Shown: in pieces, positions 4,883 through 39,575 of the stretch
How positions within the stretch are numbered: the stretch's first letter is position 1
Layout: every line of letters begins with the position of its first letter
Virus record (IMG/VR): IMGVR_UViG_3300027899_000018
Span: 1-48,867 of that record
Length of the DNA: 48,867 nucleotides
From: a virus
Direction: 5' to 3' (one strand)
The notes under the pieces: model-generated
Told to the model about the DNA's origin: nothing
Database searches by the model: none
Seen by the model: the letters and a program-made list of their open reading frames with translations, nothing else
Position numbers and translations under genes: made by a program

Positions 4883-7800
4883 ATGGCTACATATACCGCA
4901 GCAGCAGGAGGAGGTAATTGGGATAACCCAACAACATGGGGCGGTGCAGGAGTTCCTACTACAGGAGATATTGTTTTATTTAATGCAACCTCAGGTAACG
5001 TTACTGTTACTTCAGGAGCGGTTTGTTCAGAAATAAATTTTAATTCAGGAACAGCTTATGCTGGCACAATAACATTTACAAACACATTGACCATCGCGGC
5101 GACTAGTGCTTTTTCAACTTCAGGAAATATAACGTTATCACCTGCCGTAGGTTTTACTATAGCTGGCTCGAATGGTATTCTTTGGACTAGTACCGGCGGA
5201 TTATCTAGAATATTTACAAGTAATGGAAAGGCATTTAATCGCCCTTTTGTAACTGGTGGAAATGGAAGTAATGTAATAACATTAACAGGTGATTTTACAG
5301 TTTCTGACATTAACTCTGCATTCACTGGATTAAATGGTTCTAATTTAATAATTACTGGAAATGTGTCTTCTGCATCAAGCATAGCGGCTGGTACTTCGTC
5401 ATGTATTCTTGCAGGTGTATTAACAACATGGAACTCTGGAGCAAGCCTAAATAGAGTTATTTTTAATTCAACTGGAACAATAACTATATTAGGTACAGTT
5501 GCGTGTTATACTTCTATTACATGGACTCAAGGAACACTAGTTACCACTGGTTCAACCATGGCAGTTCAAGTTATGACGTCTATATCGCTAGCCGGCAAAA
5601 CTTTAAATAACATGTCGTTTTCATCTAATGCAACGACAACTACTGTTACTGGCGATTTTAATTTAACAGGCAATCTAACTCTTGGCGGTGGCGGTGGCGT
5701 GTTTAACGGAACAGGAAAAGTTTTTGTATCAGGGAATGTAATAGGCGGAGGAAACGGTGGGTCATTTACAATAGAAATGAATGGTACATCAAGTACAATT
5801 TCAGGGACTGTAAATCAACCCGTAATCGTAGCTACCTCAGGAACTATCACGGTTGGAACAAGTTGTGATATTGGAAATAATTCAAATTTAACATTAACCT
5901 CAGGAACTTTAAATTTAGCGAATAACCTTACTAGAAGAGGAGGAATTACTACAATATCCCTAGGATTCATATTAACTGGCTCTGGAAACTTAATATTTAC
6001 TAATGTTCCAAATGGTGCAACTAATCATACATTTTTTAGTAATGGCATATCTTGGCCAAATTCAGTACAAATACTCCCTAGTAGTAATGTCTCAAATACT
6101 CTTACATTAAATGATAACTTAACAGTTTTAGGTAGTTTCACAACATCTGTTGGCACTAGCGGCGGCCAAGTTCAAGCGATCAATGGAAATAGCTTATTTG
6201 TACGAGGAAACTTAACTATAGACAATCCAACCTCTGGAACCACGAATATTTTTATTTTTAGTTCAGGAACGACTATATGGTCTGGTACTTCAAGACTTGG
6301 TAATAATTTAACTATTAATAAGACAGCTGGCAGTGTTACTATAAATGGGACAGTCTATTTCGGTAATAGTAAAACTCTAACCTACACTACAGTAAGTGGA
6401 ACATTTACAACTACAGGATCGACCCTAAGAATACCTACATTAAGCGGTACAGTAAACTTAGACTTAAACGCAGCAGGAACAGGATTTAATGATTTCCAAA
6501 TTGATCATACTAATAATAATAACACAAACGTAAATCTAATATCTAATGCTTCCTTTAGGAATGTTAATGCAAGTAATCCGGTCGGTGGCTCTAGATGGAG
6601 CAGTATTGACACTGCGACCGCCTCAACATTGAGTGTAAGAGGAGACTATACTCAATTCTCGGATACTAGAGGAAATTCAAAAATAATAATGGTTGGAACT
6701 GGTAATATTACAGCAGTTGGGCCGACTTCTATTGATTTTGAAATTAACTCGCCTTCAGGTATTATTACATTTACATCTATGACACTTGGAATTGGAGGAG
6801 CATCAAATAGGACATTAAAATACACAGCAGCTGGTGGTGGTTTTATTACAACAGGATCTACACTAACTGTGCAATTTGTTTATAATTTAGATTTGGCTGG
6901 AACCACATGGGGATCTCTTGTTACATTTTCTCAAAATAATAATCCAGCTACAATTACATTACTAAGTAACGCAACATTTTCAAGTATCGCGGTTACTGGT
7001 AGTGTAAGAGAAGCTGTGATAAACGGAGCAGCATATACTATTTCATGCACAGGCAATGTGTCTAATACACTAGGATTTGACCTTGGAGGAACGGCTACGC
7101 TGGCATTTACAGGTTCTTCAAATGCAACGTGGACGAGTACCGGTGGTTCATATAGTATGAATACAGTTGTAAATAAATCTGGAGTAGGTACACTAGTCAC
7201 CGCAGGTTCTGCTTTAACCTGGGGAACAGCTAACCGATCATTAACACTAAATACTCTAGTTAATTTTTCTAATAACGCGAATACTTTCACTTTAAATAGT
7301 ACTCCTTTAACAATTAATAATCCTAGTGCTAGTCAGTTTAATAATATGACTATTCCAAATAATACAACATTAAATATCAATGGGGCAACTACACCTATCG
7401 TAGGAACATTATCATTATTAGGTTCGGCTACCTTTGCTGGAGCATTCGGTTGGACTTGCGGAACATTTACGTGCACAACCTCTGGCTCAACTATCACACT
7501 ACAGAATATAAATGCGAATCCATCCGCACAGTATACAATAACTAGTCAATTATCATTAATTGGAACATTAGCACAACGAATAATCTTACAAGCAGCAGGG
7601 TCAGCCTCGTTTACTGGTACAATTACACCAGTAGGTCAATTAAATGTTACCGCAGGAATACCGCCTTCGCCTGGAATGACACTATCACACGCAGCAGCAC
7701 CAATGCCAGACGAGTTATTCCAATTATTACCAGCAAGACCAGTAATAACGAGTATAATCACTCCAGGAACTACTTTTGGAATTACGCCATCTGCCGCTGG

Positions 7801-8029
7801 AACGATTGGATCGCGATTCATGCGAGCTGGATACAAGGCAATATTTACACTGAGCTCCGGAGCAACACAAAACGTTACGTATGTAACAACGCAAGATATA
7901 GACAGTAGTAATGGGCTATTTATATTCCCAACACAGTCGGCTGCTGAGACAGATATATTTAGAACTCTCTACTGGGGACAACTTCTTCCTCCTGAAAATA
8001 CTGCAATTGGTTGGTTAAGCGTGACTTAA
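4883..8029 (+). CDS. Large beta-rich fibre/adhesin protein, paralogue 2
   Basis: This 1048-residue protein is built like the preceding one: an N-terminal cap with GGNWDNPTTWGGAGVPTTGD, a long Thr/Ser/Asn/Gly-rich repetitive beta body (many SGTITV- and LTLGGG-like strands), and a C-terminal module (about 876-1048) almost shared with paralogue 1. The body has diverged far more than the C-terminus. The shared end may fix both proteins to the same partner or serve as a trimerisation/chaperone domain, while the body sets specificity. A 54-nt A/T-rich gap precedes it. Its TAA overlaps the stop codon of the convergent gene on the other strand. Confidence 0.75.
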   Translation: MATYTAAAGGGNWDNPTTWGGAGVPTTGDIVLFNATSGNVTVTSGAVCSEINFNSGTAYAGTITFTNTLTIAATSAFSTSGNITLSPAVGFTIAGSNGILWTSTGGLSRIFTSNGKAFNRPFVTGGNGSNVITLTGDFTVSDINSAFTGLNGSNLIITGNVSSASSIAAGTSSCILAGVLTTWNSGASLNRVIFNSTGTITILGTVACYTSITWTQGTLVTTGSTMAVQVMTSISLAGKTLNNMSFSSNATTTTVTGDFNLTGNLTLGGGGGVFNGTGKVFVSGNVIGGGNGGSFTIEMNGTSSTISGTVNQPVIVATSGTITVGTSCDIGNNSNLTLTSGTLNLANNLTRRGGITTISLGFILTGSGNLIFTNVPNGATNHTFFSNGISWPNSVQILPSSNVSNTLTLNDNLTVLGSFTTSVGTSGGQVQAINGNSLFVRGNLTIDNPTSGTTNIFIFSSGTTIWSGTSRLGNNLTINKTAGSVTINGTVYFGNSKTLTYTTVSGTFTTTGSTLRIPTLSGTVNLDLNAAGTGFNDFQIDHTNNNNTNVNLISNASFRNVNASNPVGGSRWSSIDTATASTLSVRGDYTQFSDTRGNSKIIMVGTGNITAVGPTSIDFEINSPSGIITFTSMTLGIGGASNRTLKYTAAGGGFITTGSTLTVQFVYNLDLAGTTWGSLVTFSQNNNPATITLLSNATFSSIAVTGSVREAVINGAAYTISCTGNVSNTLGFDLGGTATLAFTGSSNATWTSTGGSYSMNTVVNKSGVGTLVTAGSALTWGTANRSLTLNTLVNFSNNANTFTLNSTPLTINNPSASQFNNMTIPNNTTLNINGATTPIVGTLSLLGSATFAGAFGWTCGTFTCTTSGSTITLQNINANPSAQYTITSQLSLIGTLAQRIILQAAGSASFTGTITPVGQLNVTAGIPPSPGMTLSHAAAPMPDELFQLLPARPVITSIITPGTTFGITPSAAGTIGSRFMRAGYKAIFTLSSGATQNVTYVTTQDIDSSNGLFIFPTQSAAETDIFRTLYWGQLLPPENTAIGWLSVT
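7619..8029 (+). repeat. Fibre C-terminal module, copy 2
   Basis: This is the second copy of the module at 4421-4828. The two end in the same way (GGTTAAGCGTGACTTAATC around the stop). Confidence 0.8.
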
Positions 8030-8574
8030 TCAAAATCCAATTCAATATCAAAATCTAGATATGAGTACTTTGCCTGAAAGACCTTCATATCAGGCGTGCC
8101 TGAACTGTACGATAACTTAAAGCCATCCTGTGACTTAAGAATAGGTCGCTTAAAGATTATCGATGCAACTAAGTACCCCTGATTATCTAATAGAGATAAT
8201 CTAATTGGCGAAAAAGTTTGCTCTTTATTATCGAGGCTTAGGAAGTCTAGACTATTTTCTAGAAAGATAAAATAGTTTAGGTACGCATCTGTCATCTTAA
8301 AAGTTATTGTAAACTCTCTAGTAAAATTATCGATTACAGGTATAGAGTTCTTGAACTCTTGCTTCTTTCCAAGTAGTCGAGTCTGCTGAACTTGATTCAT
8401 CTGCCAGCCTGGAAAATCTATCGTCTGGATAGTCGCTGACATAAAATCGCCAATCGTATCGTACGGCAAGATTAGACTCTGATAGTATTTCTTATACTTT
8501 TCCTGTACTCGAGCATTAAAGTAATCTGGTGGAAACGATAGGATAAATCCATTCTGCCGTACGTTTAATAACAT
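8026..8574 (-). CDS. Tail-tube-fold virion protein (gp19/gp54-like), tentative
   Basis: This 182-residue protein has the alternating beta pattern of tail tube and tube-initiator proteins: an N-terminal strand region, DFPGWQMNQV, then REFTITFKMTDAYLNYFIFL, then a C-terminal sheet (GYLVASIIFKRPILKSQDG, MKVFQAKYSYLDFDIELDF). The length is close to T4 gp19 (163 aa). The assignment rests on fold-like pattern and on the neighbouring tail genes, not on a diagnostic motif; another baseplate beta-protein is possible. It is the last gene of the minus-strand unit running down from 13531, and its stop overlaps that of the convergent fibre gene. Confidence 0.6.
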   Translation of the reverse strand: MLLNVRQNGFILSFPPDYFNARVQEKYKKYYQSLILPYDTIGDFMSATIQTIDFPGWQMNQVQQTRLLGKKQEFKNSIPVIDNFTREFTITFKMTDAYLNYFIFLENSLDFLSLDNKEQTFSPIRLSLLDNQGYLVASIIFKRPILKSQDGFKLSYSSGTPDMKVFQAKYSYLDFDIELDFD

Positions 8575-8575
8575 G

Positions 8576-8659
8576 TTATTTACCTACTTTTTTTACATTT
8601 GCCCAAGACTCTGTTCCTTCTTCCAATATGACGTATTGTTTAAAACTTAAAATGCTCAT
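8576..8659 (-). CDS. 27-residue small protein with capsid-targeting-like N-terminus
   Basis: This short ORF reads MSILSFKQYVILEEGTES and ends KKVGK. It fills the gap between the tube-like gene and the cupin-like gene; its TAA ends 1 nt before the ATG of the next gene. Its first residues match the SF-x-x-aromatic ... E pattern seen at the N-termini of three nearby genes, similar to the T4 capsid-targeting peptide (MKTYQEFIAE). LEE/G would be an acceptable prohead-protease site. It could be a real tiny packaged peptide or the remnant of a longer gene. Position and motif support coding; nothing else does. Confidence 0.5.
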   Translation of the reverse strand: MSILSFKQYVILEEGTESWANVKKVGK

Positions 8660-8666
8660 TTTTATT

Positions 8667-8936
8667 CTAGTTTTTTATTATTTTTAGGGTAAGATCACCG
8701 GTCCCTTTGATAAGTCTATGCCAGACTCCAGAAGGTATACTCACTTCTGAGTTTAATCCAATTGGCAAGCAATCTTCAGTTTGTAATTTCCAATCAGTAA
8801 CCTCAGTAGAAATGATGTGTCTATCTTCTACATCACGGTGCCACTTTAATTCAACCGGATCAGTCGTTTCACTAAATCTTCTAATTACCTGATCTCCAGA
8901 AGTAGAGTCGCTGTATATTTTGCTAGTTTGTTCCAT
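8667..8936 (-). CDS. Small cupin-like phage protein
   Basis: This 89-residue protein starts at ATG 8936 (MEQTSKIYSDS). An upstream in-frame TTG at 8969 would overlap the preceding gene by 47 nt and is less likely. The body, VELKWHRDVEDRHIISTEVT, then DWKLQTEDCLPIGL and IPSGVWHRLIKGTGDLTLKI, matches a conserved small phage family with a single-domain cupin/jelly-roll pattern: WHRD.EDR, an LP turn, then I.G..HRLIKG. The two His positions (WHRD, WHRL) could bind metal. Function is unknown. The start overlaps the end of the upstream gene by 14 nt, so the genes are probably translationally coupled. Confidence 0.7.
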   Translation of the reverse strand: MEQTSKIYSDSTSGDQVIRRFSETTDPVELKWHRDVEDRHIISTEVTDWKLQTEDCLPIGLNSEVSIPSGVWHRLIKGTGDLTLKIIKN

Positions 8937-9480
8937 ATCTTTGCATATTAATCCAGTTCTTAAAGGCAATCGGAGTTAGGCCCTTTTGGTCGACTCCTTT
9001 ATCTCTAGCCATGTGCTGAACAAAGTCAATAACATCAACTGTTGTTGCATAGTCCATAACAGGATCGCCTTTAAGAGCATCAAGAAGATCAGTAACAACT
9101 GATGTTTCGTAAAAAGTAACATTATAATCTTCATCGTCATCTAGACCACCCATTGAGCCAACACTAATCTCATCGTCATCTAAGAAGAAATAGAGTCGAT
9201 CTTCATATTCATCTCGATCTTCATGAACTACAATTTCTCTATCTCTATTCGTTTTAAATTTTTGCAGATATGCGATTACTTCATTATCTGTTAGCCACTC
9301 ATCATTTATTTGTAGAGTGTCTAGGATACTGTCAAATTCTTCTACCCAATCTTCTGTGCCAATATACCATGTGAAAAATTCATCAACTGTCATCTGCTTG
9401 CCTTCTGAGTTAGAGGTAGCACTCTTCTTCAAGAAATTAAAGTTTTCCCAAACCGCAAAGCTGTGTATGTACTTTTTCAT
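8923..9480 (-). CDS. Acidic protein of unknown function with capsid-targeting-like N-terminus
   Basis: This 185-residue protein begins MKKYIHSFAVWENFNF. SFAVWE/N fits the [ST][FY]xx[FYW]..E pattern of its neighbours. The centre is strongly acidic (HEDRDEYEDRLYFFLDDDE, GGLDDDEDY). The C-terminal part (LTPIAFKNWINMQRYG) is more basic and helical. No known domain is recognised. Its ATG overlaps the TGA of the upstream gene as ATGA, so the two are coupled. With the N-terminal motif, an internal-head or ejected protein is a reasonable guess. Confidence 0.7.
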   Translation of the reverse strand: MKKYIHSFAVWENFNFLKKSATSNSEGKQMTVDEFFTWYIGTEDWVEEFDSILDTLQINDEWLTDNEVIAYLQKFKTNRDREIVVHEDRDEYEDRLYFFLDDDEISVGSMGGLDDDEDYNVTFYETSVVTDLLDALKGDPVMDYATTVDVIDFVQHMARDKGVDQKGLTPIAFKNWINMQRYGTN

Positions 9481-10007
9481 TTTTTCTTTATTTTGTTAAC
9501 TGCCTCATCTATTTTAGGATCAATGTTCTCGATTAAATCTTTTACTATTCTTACTGCTTCCTTAGCTGCGGCTATCCCCATTTTTTTATCTTCATAGTTA
9601 AAGATAACATTATACTCGCCCTTCTTCTTAGTTTGGCGAGTTCGGCCAAATCCAGTGTCGTGTCCAGCAAGAGTCTGTAATTCAAGAGCAATATGCTCAG
9701 CAATATGACCTAGCCAGGTACCGCGCTTAACTCTAAAGAAGAAGCCATTCTTTCTACCTTCAGAACATCTATGTTCTTTCATAGATGGAAGATACTTTTT
9801 TATATTTTGGTAGAAATTAGGAATCTTGCTAGATGGAAACTTTTCCCACTCACCTAGATCAAGGATCATGTGTACTAGTTTATCTTTACTATCACTCCAT
9901 TTATTCTTACCTTCAATCGTACTAATCTTCACTATCTTTAAGTCAGATACTTCGGGTAGCTTAATTGATTTGCTTTCAAATATTCGATATGTTAGTATAT
10001 GTTTCAT
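9477..10007 (-). CDS. Stand-alone cyanophycin-synthetase N-terminal-domain protein
   Basis: This 176-residue protein starts at ATG 10007, which overlaps the upstream stop as TAATG; a TTG two codons earlier is unlikely. Residues about 66-160 match the N-terminal domain of cyanophycin synthetase CphA: LPSMKEHRCS (73-82), GFFFRVKRGTWLGHIAEHIA (88-107), LELQTLAGHDTGFGRTRQT (108-126) and GEYNVIFNYED (130-140). CphA is normally about 870-900 residues, with ATP-grasp and Mur-ligase catalytic domains; both are absent here. The catalytic reaction is therefore impossible for this protein alone, and it may bind polymer or a host ligase. The first residues (MKHILTYRIFESKS) carry the capsid-targeting-like pattern. 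The homology is clear; the role is unknown. Confidence 0.8.
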   Translation of the reverse strand: MKHILTYRIFESKSIKLPEVSDLKIVKISTIEGKNKWSDSKDKLVHMILDLGEWEKFPSSKIPNFYQNIKKYLPSMKEHRCSEGRKNGFFFRVKRGTWLGHIAEHIALELQTLAGHDTGFGRTRQTKKKGEYNVIFNYEDKKMGIAAAKEAVRIVKDLIENIDPKIDEAVNKIKKK

Positions 10008-10588
10008 TACCAAAAACCGGGATAAGTTTTACCGCCCCAAAGATGGGCATATCTATTGATTCTACATGCCCAATAACCAGCAGTTAATCTATCTTTTTTC
10101 TCTGCACATCTGTGTCGAGCTGCAAATGATTTTCTAGCTTTTGGATTTGAAACCTTTGCAGTAAGTCCACCATGTACATCACCAAAAGAGATTAATTTTA
10201 CTCGCCCAGTCTTGGGATTCATTACATACACATGGTACTTTTTAGCACCGCCTCGCATGGGTTTTCCAAGAGTAACCTCCCTTCCGCGGTAATCTGCCTC
10301 GTCCAATACTTCAAGAGGAAGATCTAGAGGAACGGCAGTTCCGCCATACTCTCCAACCTTACCTAGATCAGTATTCAAGAATAGCGCATGGTCTATCTCA
10401 CCAAGCTTGATCTTATTTGATTCAAATAGTGTTCTTGCCTCAGTTAAGATACGCATGTGCGCAAAACTTCCAGGTCGATATACTGACTCTGCAATCGAAA
10501 GATTTCTTTCAACATGATACTTTAGTTCATCTGAAATCTGAATATTCTCTCCAATAAATTGGGTAAAACTTTTTATTCTTGTCTCCAT
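10007..10588 (-). CDS. Conserved phage protein with RHxC / AGYWACR C-terminal domain and capsid-targeting-like N-terminus
   Basis: This 193-residue protein begins METRIKSFTQFIGENIQ. SFTQFIGE aligns position for position with TYQEFIAE of the T4 capsid-targeting peptide, and IGE/N is a plausible prohead-protease site. The C-terminal third contains KYHVYVMNPKTGRVKLISFG, then SFAARHRCAEKKDRLTAGYW and ACRINRYAHLWGG. This is a domain widespread in T4-like marine phages and often annotated only as structural. The H-x-C plus Cys pattern hints at metal binding. It lies between the gp15-like gene and the CphA-domain gene in one unit. Presence in the virion is probable; function is unknown. Confidence 0.75.
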   Translation of the reverse strand: METRIKSFTQFIGENIQISDELKYHVERNLSIAESVYRPGSFAHMRILTEARTLFESNKIKLGEIDHALFLNTDLGKVGEYGGTAVPLDLPLEVLDEADYRGREVTLGKPMRGGAKKYHVYVMNPKTGRVKLISFGDVHGGLTAKVSNPKARKSFAARHRCAEKKDRLTAGYWACRINRYAHLWGGKTYPGFW

Positions 10589-10595
10589 ACTTTAT

Positions 10596-11381
10596 TTATT
10601 CGCTTGGTGGAAAATCAGGATCAATCCAAACATCATTGAGTGGTGCACCAGAGTCCGCTTGTGATTGGCGTAGGTTAATTTGATGAATAGTATTTCCTTT
10701 GTAGAAGGTAGAGTGATCATCGAAACTAGGAAAATATGTCTCAATATCTAGGCTGAGACTAATAGTAACTTTATTGTCATCAGTATAGCTAAATGAGTAT
10801 AGCTTTTGAAATTCTGCAGTGTCTGGAAAGGTGACCTGTGCTGGTATTCTGGTTCCTCTAAATTGAAAATATCTCACCTGATTCTTATAGTAAAAATCAA
10901 ATATCTTTTCAAGTATCTTAAATGTCTTATTGATATTGTCACTCTCGATCTTTACTGAGTATTTTAGTGCCATTGGTAGGACAAATAGTCGCGATGAAAA
11001 TGCCTTTAACTGTCTTTGATCATTCTCATCCCTAACCTCTTGATTAAAGGTACCTCGGATAAACTTATTCGTAATATCAGTAGACTTTATCTGGAAACCA
11101 GTGAGAGTAACTACTCCACGAGGCATCTGATCATAATTTCCTTCAGCATGATTTGGATACTTACAATCAGTAGGTAATTCCATGAAAAAGTCTTTCATAA
11201 ATCCTTCGTCCCCTCCAAAATTATAGAAGAATGGAATTTCATGTTTAGTAACCACATCTCCACGCTTAAGATCTATAATTACTTCACGATTAAGTAGATC
11301 AAGTAGAGAAAGAGTTGCATTTCTTAGAAAGATATCTTGAGTATTTTCATTTCTGATATTTTCATTATTTGTGCTCTTCAT
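10596..11381 (-). CDS. T4 gp15-like tail terminator / sheath-stabiliser protein
   Basis: This 261-residue protein has the outline of T4 gp15 (272 aa). An N-terminal helix and strand (FLRNATLSLLDLLNREVIID) lead to KHEIPFFYNFGGDEGFMKDF. Next comes the segment LFVLPMALKYSVKIESDNIN, a helix FKILEKIFDFYY, and a closing strand region SLDIETYFPSF that matches the gp15 pattern of partner exchange near the sheath end. gp15 caps the tail tube and sheath and joins the tail to the head. The assignment is by sequence pattern and context (tube-like gene downstream, baseplate genes upstream). Five bases separate it from the next upstream gene. Confidence 0.6.
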   Translation of the reverse strand: MKSTNNENIRNENTQDIFLRNATLSLLDLLNREVIIDLKRGDVVTKHEIPFFYNFGGDEGFMKDFFMELPTDCKYPNHAEGNYDQMPRGVVTLTGFQIKSTDITNKFIRGTFNQEVRDENDQRQLKAFSSRLFVLPMALKYSVKIESDNINKTFKILEKIFDFYYKNQVRYFQFRGTRIPAQVTFPDTAEFQKLYSFSYTDDNKVTISLSLDIETYFPSFDDHSTFYKGNTIHQINLRQSQADSGAPLNDVWIDPDFPPSE

Positions 11382-32941: not shown

Positions 32942-33340
32942 TTAAATGCTATAAATAGAACTTTCTCCGCTCATGTTAAGTGAGATAAACTCAAGTTTGT
33001 CATTTTTATCTAAACCGGTCTTCTTATGGATCTTTTTCCACTCCTTAGCGTACCCGTTTTTACATAATTGTGTGAAATATGCAAATGCGTTTGGATTTTC
33101 AAATCGAGTTTCATCAAAACTCTTCCAGTATTTTAAGCAATCAAGTATTGCAGATTGAATACAGTCTTCTCTGTCACGATAATCTTCAAAATATAGACGA
33201 GCAACTGCTCGGTTTGCTAGTGATACAAAACAATCAATCGCAAATTTACTTAATTCTCCCTGGCCTTTACATTTAACAATTTCTTCAGTAAAGTCTTTAT
33301 TATTAATGTAGTGCTGATCTCCGCGTTTTTTCCTTGCCAT
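32942..33340 (-). CDS. T4 gp55-like late sigma factor
   Basis: This 132-residue protein resembles T4 gp55, the minimal sigma factor that directs host RNA polymerase to late promoters. Matching features are HYINNKDFTEEI (10-21; gp55 has YVNNKEL), a helical sigma region-2-like core RLYFEDYRDREDCIQSAILD (48-67), then YWKSFDETRFENPNAFAYFT (71-90), corresponding to the gp55 segment HNFDETKYKNPHAYITQ. It is shorter than T4 gp55 (185 aa), and I see no C-terminal clamp-binding motif like that of T4. It is encoded upstream of the late virion block, 10 nt after the RuvC-like gene. It would be expected to recognise a TATAAATA-like element. Confidence 0.75.
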   Translation of the reverse strand: MARKKRGDQHYINNKDFTEEIVKCKGQGELSKFAIDCFVSLANRAVARLYFEDYRDREDCIQSAILDCLKYWKSFDETRFENPNAFAYFTQLCKNGYAKEWKKIHKKTGLDKNDKLEFISLNMSGESSIYSI

Positions 33341-36496: not shown

Positions 36497-37405
36497 ATGA
36501 AAAGCCTAAATATTAATTTAGAGGAAAAAAGTGATATTAAGTATAAAATTTCACATTTTCCAGATGGACAACAGGATATTGCAATCCTCCCTAATTTTGC
36601 ACTAGAATCAATACTTGAAAGTAATTCACCTGTATTAATCCAGTCAAGATTTAATTCATTAATGGATTTAGAGCTAATTATCTGTACAACTAAGGCTCTT
36701 AGAAGATTAGGTATTACTGAAATTCATTTACATATTCCGTATATACTTGGAGCGCGCAGTGATCGTCAGTTTATTGAAGGTGGGACATCTTACCTAGTTG
36801 ATGTAATTGCACCTATCCTAAATCTACAAAATTTTACATCAGTTACCTGTCTAGATGTCCACTCAGATGTTGCTGCTGCATGTATTGATCGACTAAAGGT
36901 TGTTAGTAATTGCGAGTTCGTTCAGAGTGCACTAACTAAGATCACAACAACTCGAGACTCTTGGGTACTCGTTTCACCAGACGGTGGCTCACTCAAGAAA
37001 ATTTATAAAGTCGCAGACGCTATTGGTTTTACTGGAGAAATTGTAGTATGCAGTAAGCATCGTGACTCTTCTGGTCTACTAACTAAAACTATTGTGCCTC
37101 TTACTTCACTAGAAGATCGTACCTACATTATTATCGATGATATTTGCGATGGCGGTAGGACTTTTATAAATATTGCTGAAGAGATCAAGAGATTACACGA
37201 TGGACTTCCATGGAATAGTAAAATCTACTTAATCATAACTCATGGAGTGTTTAGCGCAGGTGTACTACACTTAACTCAGTATTTTGAAAAAATATTTGTT
37301 ACCAATAGTATTAAAGACATGTCTGATGATAATACTATTAATTATTCAGCTGCCTCTGCACAACTTCATCAAATTAACATTTTTAACACTGCATATAAAA
37401 AATGA
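36497..37405 (+). CDS. prs: Ribose-phosphate pyrophosphokinase-like enzyme (Prs or ADP-ribose variant)
   Basis: This 302-residue enzyme has a PRPP-synthetase fold. An ATP/ribose-phosphate region is seen in HIPYILGARSDRQFIEGGTS (~78-97) and SVTCLDVHSDVAAA (~114-127, catalytic-region His). The PRPP-binding loop is YIIIDDICDGGRTF (~211-224). Canonical Prs makes PRPP from ribose-5-phosphate and ATP. Phage homologues paired with NAMPT-like enzymes can instead act on ADP-ribose in the NARP1 NAD-rebuilding pathway. The NAMPT-like gene lies 0.65 kb downstream on the same strand, so a joint NAD function is likely. Which substrate it uses cannot be read from sequence alone. Its stop overlaps the next start as ATGA. 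Confidence 0.88.
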   Translation: MKSLNINLEEKSDIKYKISHFPDGQQDIAILPNFALESILESNSPVLIQSRFNSLMDLELIICTTKALRRLGITEIHLHIPYILGARSDRQFIEGGTSYLVDVIAPILNLQNFTSVTCLDVHSDVAAACIDRLKVVSNCEFVQSALTKITTTRDSWVLVSPDGGSLKKIYKVADAIGFTGEIVVCSKHRDSSGLLTKTIVPLTSLEDRTYIIIDDICDGGRTFINIAEEIKRLHDGLPWNSKIYLIITHGVFSAGVLHLTQYFEKIFVTNSIKDMSDDNTINYSAASAQLHQINIFNTAYKK

Positions 37406-38051: not shown

Positions 38052-39575
38052 ATGAATCCACTTTTTTTAACTGATGGTTACAAAACTGGTCACCATCAAC
38101 AATACCCTGAAGGAACTATTCTAGTTTATTCAAATTTTACTCCTCGTAGTAATAAGTATGCACCTTCTGGATGCAGTGAAGTAGTTGTGTTTGGTCCTCA
38201 AATGGTGATGATGCAATTAGACGAAGCTTTTACCAGAGAATTTTTCTCAAAACCCAAAGAGTTAGTTTGTGGTGAGATGAAGCGTGAACTATCGATGTAC
38301 CTAAATACAGATTATGATGTAAGTCATTTTGAAGCCTTACATGATCTTGGATATCTACCTATTCATGTTAAATCAATTAAAGAGGGTACGATCATACCGA
38401 TTAAAGTTCCTGTGTTTACAATTTACAATACTCATCCTAATTTCTTTTGGGTTACCAATTATCTTGAAACAATTCTTTCAAATCTACTCTGGAAACCCAT
38501 GACCTCTGCTACAATTGCTCATCAATATCGTAAGGTATTGACCAGTTGGATGGAGAAAACAGATAGTGAACGTGCTTGGTTTATTGACTGGCAAGGTCAC
38601 GACTTTTCAATGCGAGGTATGGATAGTATTGATGCAGTAATTTCATCAGGCTTAGGTCATCTAACCTCTTTTTCAGGATCAGATTCTCTACCTACAATTC
38701 ATGGAGCTCGTAAATACTATGGAGAAGAAGGGTTTATTGCTGGCTCAGTAAACGCAACCGAACACTCAGTAATGTGCGCTGGAAGTAAAGATGACGAAAT
38801 TGGAACATTCCGTCGTTTGATTAAAACATATCCAACTGGAATCCTATCAATCGTCTCAGATACCTGGGACCTTTGGAAAGTATGTACTGAACATGTAGTT
38901 ACTCTTAAAGAGGAGATCATGGCTCGTGATGGTAAACTTGTTATTCGCCCTGATTCAGGCGATCCAGTAGATATCCTTTGTGGATTTGAAAAACCTGATA
39001 CTTTGTACCGAAATCCAATTGACGCCAGAAAATATCGTGCTTCTGATGCAGAAGCAAAAGGAGTTGTTGAACTTCTCTGGGATGTATTTGGTGGAACAAT
39101 TAATGAGCAAGGTTACAAAGTTCTTGACTCCCATATTGGAGCAATCTATGGCGATTCAATTACAATTGACCGAGCAAACCAAATTTGTGAAAGATTAGAA
39201 GCCAAAGGCTTTGCATCAACTAATGTTGTACTTGGAGTTGGTTCATTTACATATCAGTATAATACTCGAGATACCTTTGGTTTTGCAATGAAGGCAACAT
39301 ATGTTGAATTGCTACAACCTGTCGAAGGTATTGAAGTAGACAAATGGCCGTTTGAAGGTCGTGAAATCTTTAAAGACCCAATCACAGACGACGGCACAAA
39401 AAAGTCAGCTACTGGATTATTATGCGTTGAAACTCTACCAGATGGTCGCATTGGACTATATGATAAAGTTAGTTGGGAAACTGAAGGAACTGGACTATTA
39501 CAAACCATTTATAAAGATGGTGAGTTTAAGAACACAACAACCCTTACTGAAATTCGTAATACTCTAAAATCATAA
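38052..39575 (+). CDS. nadV: Nicotinamide phosphoribosyltransferase-like enzyme (NAMPT/NadV)
   Basis: This 507-residue protein is full length for NAMPT. Motifs are NPLFLTDGYKTGHHQQYPEG at the N-terminus, HDFSMRGMDS (~184-193), NATEHSVMCAG (~235-245), KLVIRPDSGDPVDI (~295-308, the phosphoribosyl-binding segment) and GAIYGDSITI (~362-371). NAMPT joins nicotinamide to PRPP to make NMN; the NARP1 homologue (Namat) instead joins nicotinamide to ADP-ribose-pyrophosphate to make NAD directly. It lies in one operon-like run with the prs-like gene. It would sustain NAD during infection or counter NAD-depleting defences. Confidence 0.92.
   Translation: MNPLFLTDGYKTGHHQQYPEGTILVYSNFTPRSNKYAPSGCSEVVVFGPQMVMMQLDEAFTREFFSKPKELVCGEMKRELSMYLNTDYDVSHFEALHDLGYLPIHVKSIKEGTIIPIKVPVFTIYNTHPNFFWVTNYLETILSNLLWKPMTSATIAHQYRKVLTSWMEKTDSERAWFIDWQGHDFSMRGMDSIDAVISSGLGHLTSFSGSDSLPTIHGARKYYGEEGFIAGSVNATEHSVMCAGSKDDEIGTFRRLIKTYPTGILSIVSDTWDLWKVCTEHVVTLKEEIMARDGKLVIRPDSGDPVDILCGFEKPDTLYRNPIDARKYRASDAEAKGVVELLWDVFGGTINEQGYKVLDSHIGAIYGDSITIDRANQICERLEAKGFASTNVVLGVGSFTYQYNTRDTFGFAMKATYVELLQPVEGIEVDKWPFEGREIFKDPITDDGTKKSATGLLCVETLPDGRIGLYDKVSWETEGTGLLQTIYKDGEFKNTTTLTEIRNTLKS

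Follow-up and report, generated by a model that had tools for sequence, protein, structure and literature searches.

A T4-type capsid-targeting tag, as judged by sequence, on varied cargo genes of a large T4-like myovirus and its relatives, and its likeness to repeats in a protease-scaffold fusion

In phage T4, the internal proteins IPI, IPII and IPIII and the head-packaged ADP-ribosyltransferase Alt are unrelated proteins that share a capsid-targeting sequence (CTS; Black and co-workers) in their N-terminal 10–15 residues, with aromatic residues at about positions 4 and 7, a hydrophobic residue at 8, a glutamate at 10 and a small residue next. The N-termini of IPII and IPIII read MKTYQEFIAEA (NC_000866), and suppressor analysis of the IPIII peptide assigned targeting mainly to residues 4 and 7 and processing to residues 8 and 10 (PMC9026906). 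The same source gives the propeptide of T4 gp23 as 65 residues (PMC9026906), and gp23 residues 59–65 (FGSFLTE, then A; L165), where the known propeptide stops, match the tag motif described below, which is absent from T4 gp22, gp67, gp68 and gp21.

Two other systems are relevant for comparison. Polyvalent proteins, including those with ART-PolyVal, have been predicted on other grounds to be injected conflict proteins (Iyer et al. 2017, PMC5512222). The giant phages of the SPN3US type belong to a different phage group; in accounts of their ejection proteins, a prohead protease processes many proteins of the head (PMC5694885, PMC10052503), a likeness to what we propose here. In addition, three closely neighbouring genes of a cultured relative, Methylophilales phage Melnitz, begin with tag-like N-termini: gp15 (MQGFKTFLSEA), gp16 (LINFSKYITED) and gp18 (MKKFSEIIEA). 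They lie beside gp19, a homologue of P0004 of this study. Melnitz gp18 joins several disparate domains in one polypeptide, since its cytidyltransferase-like N-terminal part is fused to a DUF5824-like segment and to the P0001 domain, and the phage has a separate gp21-like protease and a prohead core protein without repeats.

The DNA studied here, which we call the window, is a 48,867-base fragment from an IMG/VR virus record. Weak matches identify gp15-like and gp13/14-like genes, and the window also encodes a collar fibre, a gp55-like late sigma factor, NAMPT, PRPP synthetase and GroEL; this content indicates that it derives from a large T4-like myovirus (Table 1). The PRPP synthetase (36497–37405) and nicotinamide phosphoribosyltransferase (38052–39575) genes likely form an NAD salvage pair, and some relatives have a tagged ADP-ribosyltransferase or NUDIX protein. 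A plus-strand ORF of 1048 residues (4883–8029) is repetitive and rich in Thr, Ser and Asn, an adhesin-like composition. When window proteins of at least 120 aa with any relative among 12 compared genomes were counted, homologues were found for 21 in G005 (mean identity 64%), 20 in G007 (63%) and 19 in G004 (67%).

Table 1. Coordinates of features in the window and the evidence for each.
Feature	Position	Strand	Evidence
P0001, 193 aa: tag, N-terminal region of ~85 residues and C-terminal phrog_7595 domain	10007..10588	-	phrog_7595 E 2.6e-12, residues 96-176
Tag of P0001, METRIKSFTQFIGE, predicted protease cut after E14	10547..10588	-	hxE in 20/23 rows having the column; S/G/N next in 16/20
Predicted propeptide region of P0001, residues 15-97	10298..10546	-	conserved hxE at E34, E50, E97
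Predicted mature P0001 product, residues 98-193, phrog_7595 domain	10010..10297	-	phrog_7595 match; orthologue hxE alignment
P0002, 176 aa, tagged, cyanophycin-synthase-like N-terminal domain	9477..10007	-	PF18921 E 7.2e-44, 148.9 bits vs cut-off 27
Tag of P0002, MKHILTYRIFE, FxhFE variant, IFE/S fits L/I-x-E rule	9975..10007	-	FxhFE enrichment
PF18921 domain of P0002, residues 47-160	9528..9869	-	Pfam match
P0003, 185 aa, acidic; probable tag MKKYIHSFAVWE at 9445-9480 (VWE/N)	8923..9480	-	fits FxhFE variant; one sequence
P0004, WHRD-type protein, untagged member of run	8667..8936	-	0/55 distinct relatives tagged
27-codon ORF, deletion scar: gene A tag end (8604-8659) and last gene B codons (8576-8603)	8576..8659	-	comparison with L015
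gp15-like tail sheath stabiliser, upstream border, untagged control	10596..11381	-	PF16724 E 2.5e-4 (below cut-off); tagged relatives 0/24
Weakly tail-tube-like protein, downstream border of variable slot, untagged control	8026..8574	-	phrog_45 E 0.011; tagged relatives 0/29
gp55-like late sigma factor	32942..33340	-	phrog_234, E 2.9e-18
AATAAATA, possible late-promoter-like element just upstream of P0001, overlaps gp15-like gene's stop	10593..10600	-	[AG]ATAAATA enrichment

The initial annotation had pointed to an N-terminal pattern shared by four genes of a five-gene run, and all four N-termini were recovered on the minus strand: METRIKSFTQFIGEN (10588), MKHILTYRIFES (10007), MKKYIHSFAVWEN (9480) and MSILSFKQYVILEE (8659). 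The fifth gene of the run, P0004 (8667–8936), is without the motif. The annotation had further stated that no other gene in the window starts this way. P0001, P0002 and P0003 were the only matches to its pattern when the 34 genes called at a length of 45 aa or more were examined (0.3 expected from the internal rate in the same proteins), a count which the 27-codon ORF, shorter than the gene caller's length limit, falls outside. The window sample alone is modest, being three genes and a 27-codon scar, and the weight of the case for the tag comes from relatives of this phage.

The 27-codon ORF had been suggested to encode a head-packaged protein that would be almost entirely targeting peptide. 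This reading was not borne out: the ORF joins ~56 nt from the start of one tagged gene to the closing 28 nt of the gene that follows. At the same place L015 carries two tagged genes, gene A of 227 aa (MSVLKFNQYLILEKGTESC...) and gene B of 157 aa (MILTFNQYCILE...SKSWANVKKVGK), and the window ORF MSILSFKQYVILEEGTESWANVKKVGK matches the beginning of gene A followed by the end of gene B. The first 54 nt agree with gene A at 44/54 positions and the last 30 nt with gene B at 28/30; a single junction at nt 56 explains 72/84 nt, compared with 53/75 for gene A alone. By this alignment the ORF is the remnant of a deletion of ~1.1 kb, not an ordinary gene.

To count the tag in relatives, genes were called with a start rule blind to the motif, the strict motif was set as [FY]xx[FWY][ILVMF]xE, and counts were pooled over 11 large relatives, of which seven records were used first and G005, G007, G011 and G012 were added after the motif had been fixed. 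In 79 genes the strict motif occurred at residues 3–9, where 5.06 would be expected (p ~3e-64), and when residues 2–20 of each gene were shuffled (200 shuffles) the mean was 3.8 and the maximum 9, compared with 78/2367 observed. In the first seven records the motif was concentrated at residues 4–9 and was rare at other positions. A search for further genes with the same start, which the initial annotation had suggested for the full genome, gave up to 18 strict matches per genome in these relatives (G008, 18 vs 0.9 expected; G001, 11 vs 0.8; G004, 8 vs 0.2), and the enrichment was repeated in the later genomes (G005, 4 vs 0.4; G007, 8 vs 0.35; G011, 7 vs 0.6; G012, 4 vs 0.5), while G006 had a single strict match. 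Two variants were also enriched at the N-terminus, the short FxhFE of P0002 and P0003 (13 genes at residues 3–9 vs 2.2 expected) and the long FxxFxhxE of gene A of neighbour phages (15 vs 3.2). Flavobacterium phage immuto, analysed with the same caller, showed no enrichment (1 vs 0.38 expected). Immuto (NC_055915; L166–L168, L162) has a recurrent N-terminus of its own on four genes, MENFDLKKFLVEN (MENFDLKKFLVENKLTxNS or similar), which is perhaps that phage's own type of tag.

Tagged genes were spread all over the genomes and were also clustered, 38/101 having another tagged gene no more than two positions away (mean 15.8 and maximum 30 after shuffling). Two adjoined the major capsid gene (G008 103709, G013 7989). 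Small tagged proteins with tandem repeats rich in Lys, Ser and Gly lie directly 3' of the major capsid gene (L108:3709-4074, L117:7989-8342) and recall basic internal proteins.

The consensus of the tag is K-[SNRKT]-[FY]-x-[QE]-[FW]-[IVL]-[NKTG]-E-[SAGN], and its four conserved columns correspond to T4 residues 4 and 7 (targeting) and 8 and 10 (processing). In P0001, P0002, P0003 and their relatives the two targeting aromatics lie in an N-terminal peptide of 10–19 residues. The residue after the tag Glu was A, S, G or N in 42/55 tags versus 16/84 internal chance matches, as gp21-type cleavage would predict. The L/I-x-E cut-site rule is fitted by FIGE/N in P0001 and IFE/S in P0002; P0003, with VWE/N, has V there. 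The likeness to the T4 peptide first seen in the window was upheld by relatives, where the same grammar recurs on many unrelated proteins, an ADP-ribosyltransferase among them, and some of which encode an S77 protease. Judged by its sequence, the tag belongs to the T4 type of CTS, and as a kind it is consequently already known. The relatives differ from T4 in having up to 18 strict genes per genome, where T4 has a handful, and in the extra FxhFE and FxxFxhxE variants. The T4 internal proteins are basic, whereas the tagged proteins here were no more basic than untagged ones.

The cargo was diverse. The 69 tagged proteins compared fell into nine small similarity clusters, the rest being singletons, and their domains included an ART-PolyVal ADP-ribosyltransferase (L149:3428-4009, E 1.6e-12), a NUDIX domain (L147:18647-19153), a GDSL hydrolase (L155:8254-9102), a 5'-nucleotidase/HAD (L109:2012-2584) and DUF5824. 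Where P0001 relatives occur, the slot that is bounded by gp15-like and tail-tube-like genes varied in content from phage to phage, and this allowed cargo and flanking families to be compared within one locus. The cargo families were tagged in 37/51 (P0001), 7/8 (PF18921), 15/17 (gene A), 13/19 (gene B), 5/11 (DUF5824-like) and 3/10 (one further slot family) of their members. The flanking families were tagged in 0/139 (P0004, 0/55; tail-tube-like, 0/29; gp15-like, 0/24; gp13/14-like, 0/31). The presence of ART-PolyVal among the tagged cargo, and the fusion of phrog_7595, cytidyltransferase and DUF5824-like domains in Melnitz gp18, resemble polyvalent proteins; unlike these, the domains here are mostly split among small proteins that are tagged individually, and the window proteins have single domains. 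In the open-access literature searched, no report was found that ties a T4-type tag to polyvalent proteins.

With 364 relatives in IMG/VR, P0001 is the most widespread cargo candidate. Its orthologues have hxE in 34/34 at each of E34 (then S/N), E50 (then A/T) and E97 (then A/E), and the orthologue alignment has no conserved hxE within residues 98–193. The P0001 model is of low confidence at residues 91–95, a likely linker, and the phrog_7595 domain starts at about residue 96. Based on these features, we infer that the N-terminal half of P0001 is a propeptide removed piecewise and that the phrog_7595 domain is the mature cargo, although E50 is less certain as a cut site because it sits in a predicted helix. 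Some P0001 orthologues have no tag and start near the conserved body, which indicates that the tag has been gained or lost independently of the body. The phrog_7595 domain occurs alone or fused in other phage proteins. The P0001 model had no confident match in the PDB, and its viral matches were other uncharacterised phage proteins.

P0002 was found at 13 IMG/VR loci and had no match in named phages. We rejected its assignment as a cyanophycin synthetase, as the protein has 176 residues, PF18921 is its only domain over the cut-off and ATP-grasp and Mur-ligase domains are absent. P0002 (9477–10007) is almost entirely a PF18921 domain without catalytic domains, an unusual candidate for tagged cargo. 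P0003 had no relative in viral contigs and no Pfam or PHROG match, so its probable tag is read from a single sequence.

A search for a gp21-like prohead protease, as the initial annotation had suggested, found one in relatives; in the 48.9-kb window, neither a protease nor a 14-residue repeat was found. Peptidase S77 (PF03420) was identified in 10/15 relatives searched at E <= 0.01 (7/15 records over the curated Pfam cut-off), including G005 and G007, which share 20–21 genes with the window and are its closest protease-bearing relatives. In each of three genomes studied more closely, S77 adjoins the major capsid gene as part of one long ORF, and in 10/10 relatives with the protease it is followed by tandem 14-residue repeats, the clearest units of which read IxYSEYIAENLDKN. 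The fusion is a single ORF of 650–736 residues with the protease, 9–13 repeats and a C-terminal scaffold-like region, and it was the sole ORF with 14-residue spacing in each protease-bearing genome scanned whole or nearly so. By contrast, T4 gp21 is 212 aa with gp22 separate, and the T4 scaffold gp22 is without tag-like tandem units. A scan of the collection returned at least 498 relatives of the fusion, the best 80 of which gave 69 distinct further fusions with 9–13 copies each; in these 69 the repeat core is Y-x-x-Y-[LIV]-A-E, with Tyr at both aromatic positions in 749/749 units. The model of the fusion, of low confidence (mean pLDDT 47 in the repeat region), only suggests that the repeats form one long helix. 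The fusion was not found in G001, G002, G004, G014 and G015, and the four of these whose records were examined had no full-length major capsid protein and so look like fragments without the head module. ORFs of 66–90 aa in G001 (73919–74191, 134247–134447) and G014 (80842–81051) are weakly similar to gp23-type capsid pieces, possibly from a split or fragmented capsid gene.

The repeat consensus, IxYSEY[IL]AENLDKN, has the two aromatics, the hydrophobic residue and the Glu of the tag. A BLOSUM-smoothed profile built from the repeats alone matched the N-termini (residues 4–9) of 11 other genes versus 0.97 expected (p 7.6e-9); few tags were recovered with a strict log-odds matrix, which the repeats made Tyr-only and hence too narrow. 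At two positions outside the motif definition, tags exceeded chance matches in S/T at +1 (22/55 vs 12/84) and in acidic or amide residues at +2 (41/55 vs 32/84). Tags and repeats differ at -2, in the choice of Q or E at +2 and at +5; in the repeats both aromatics are Tyr and Ala precedes the Glu, whereas most tags have Phe-Phe/Trp as aromatics, Lys at -2 and Asn in front of the Glu. Because the aromatics, the -2 residue and the residue before the Glu differ, the likeness could partly reflect a shared protease.

Tagged genes may also share an expression element. [AG]ATAAATA was present within 70 nt upstream of 29/104 tagged genes versus 241/2270 untagged genes (p 1.8e-6 for a pattern that was adjusted with the data in view; TAAATA, taken from T4 beforehand and one of four patterns tried, gave p 6e-5). 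Neither the reverse complement of the core (TATTTA) nor the consensus T4 late promoter TATAAATA was enriched upstream of tagged genes. Similar elements lie 5' of the protease-scaffold gene in G005, G006, G007, G008 and G013.

We consider it likely that the tag acts in head assembly as follows. The run in the window would be part of a variable cargo slot, from the gp15-like to the tail-tube-like genes, of a large T4-like myovirus. The two aromatic residues of the tag would carry each protein into the prohead core, which in this clade may be built from the protease-scaffold fusion with its 9–13 copies of a tag-like 14-residue unit. Since that unit resembles the tag, the tag probably enters the core in place of one scaffold unit. 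The S77 prohead protease would then cut the tag off at hxE before DNA packaging, the last cut in P0001 probably falling at E97/A98 and leaving the phrog_7595 domain, and the mature proteins would remain in the head to be ejected with the DNA. Points against this explanation are the position of the slot among tail and neck genes, the absence of a protease or repeat from the window and the lack of the motif in T4 gp22.

The position of the cluster between gp15-like and tail-tube-like genes could instead mean that the motif directs proteins to tail or neck assembly. We regard this as very unlikely, as the tail-tube-like, gp15-like and gp13/14-like families are themselves tagged in 0/84 and tagged genes occur genome-wide, including two that adjoin the major capsid gene. 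Chance or a bias in N-terminal composition might account for the window by itself, with its three genes and scar, but has almost no probability given the shuffled N-termini (at most 9 matches against 78) and the single match in immuto. The tag might also be a protease site (propeptide) only, the proteins being brought to the head by their folded domains. An hxE with a small next residue is the commonest theme, and the hxE sites of P0001 at E34, E50 and E97 are conserved even in tagless orthologues. However, the aromatics lie outside the L/I-x-E rule and in T4 affect targeting, not processing (PMC9026906), likely major-capsid cut sites such as INE/S have no aromatics, and the tag is common to unrelated folds, which together make this explanation improbable.

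A narrower alternative bears on the scaffold part of our explanation, namely that tags and repeats are alike because one protease cuts both, with no structural mimicry. A scaffold must be cut many times, the residues in common include the hxE site, and tags and repeats differ at -2, 2 and 5. Against this, both aromatics are near invariant in the repeats and common to the tags, and the enrichment over chance matches extends to S/T at +1 and to acidic or amide residues at +2. We view this alternative as a real possibility, if the less probable one; binding of tag and repeat to the same core lattice is our best reading, with the common protease as its main rival.

As far as the open-access literature searched shows, and earlier reports are possible, three things are new: the use of the tag on many genes per genome in this clade, a protease-scaffold fusion whose repeats resemble the tag, and the mechanism proposed from them. 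How the prohead core recognises the T4 capsid-targeting peptide is a long-standing question, to which scaffold repeats that resemble the tag offer a concrete, testable answer. We speculate, at close to even chances, that the tag is a detached single scaffold repeat, such that the cargo would pose as a scaffold unit and be freed by the protease that dismantles the scaffold, and the tag would serve a large uncultured T4-like clade as a general address code for a changeable injected arsenal. The tag also provides a detector, from sequence only, of likely injected proteins in uncultured phage genomes, where such proteins are nearly all ‘hypothetical’, and it points to ADP-ribosyltransferase, NUDIX, GDSL and other proteins as candidates for early host takeover or counter-defence.
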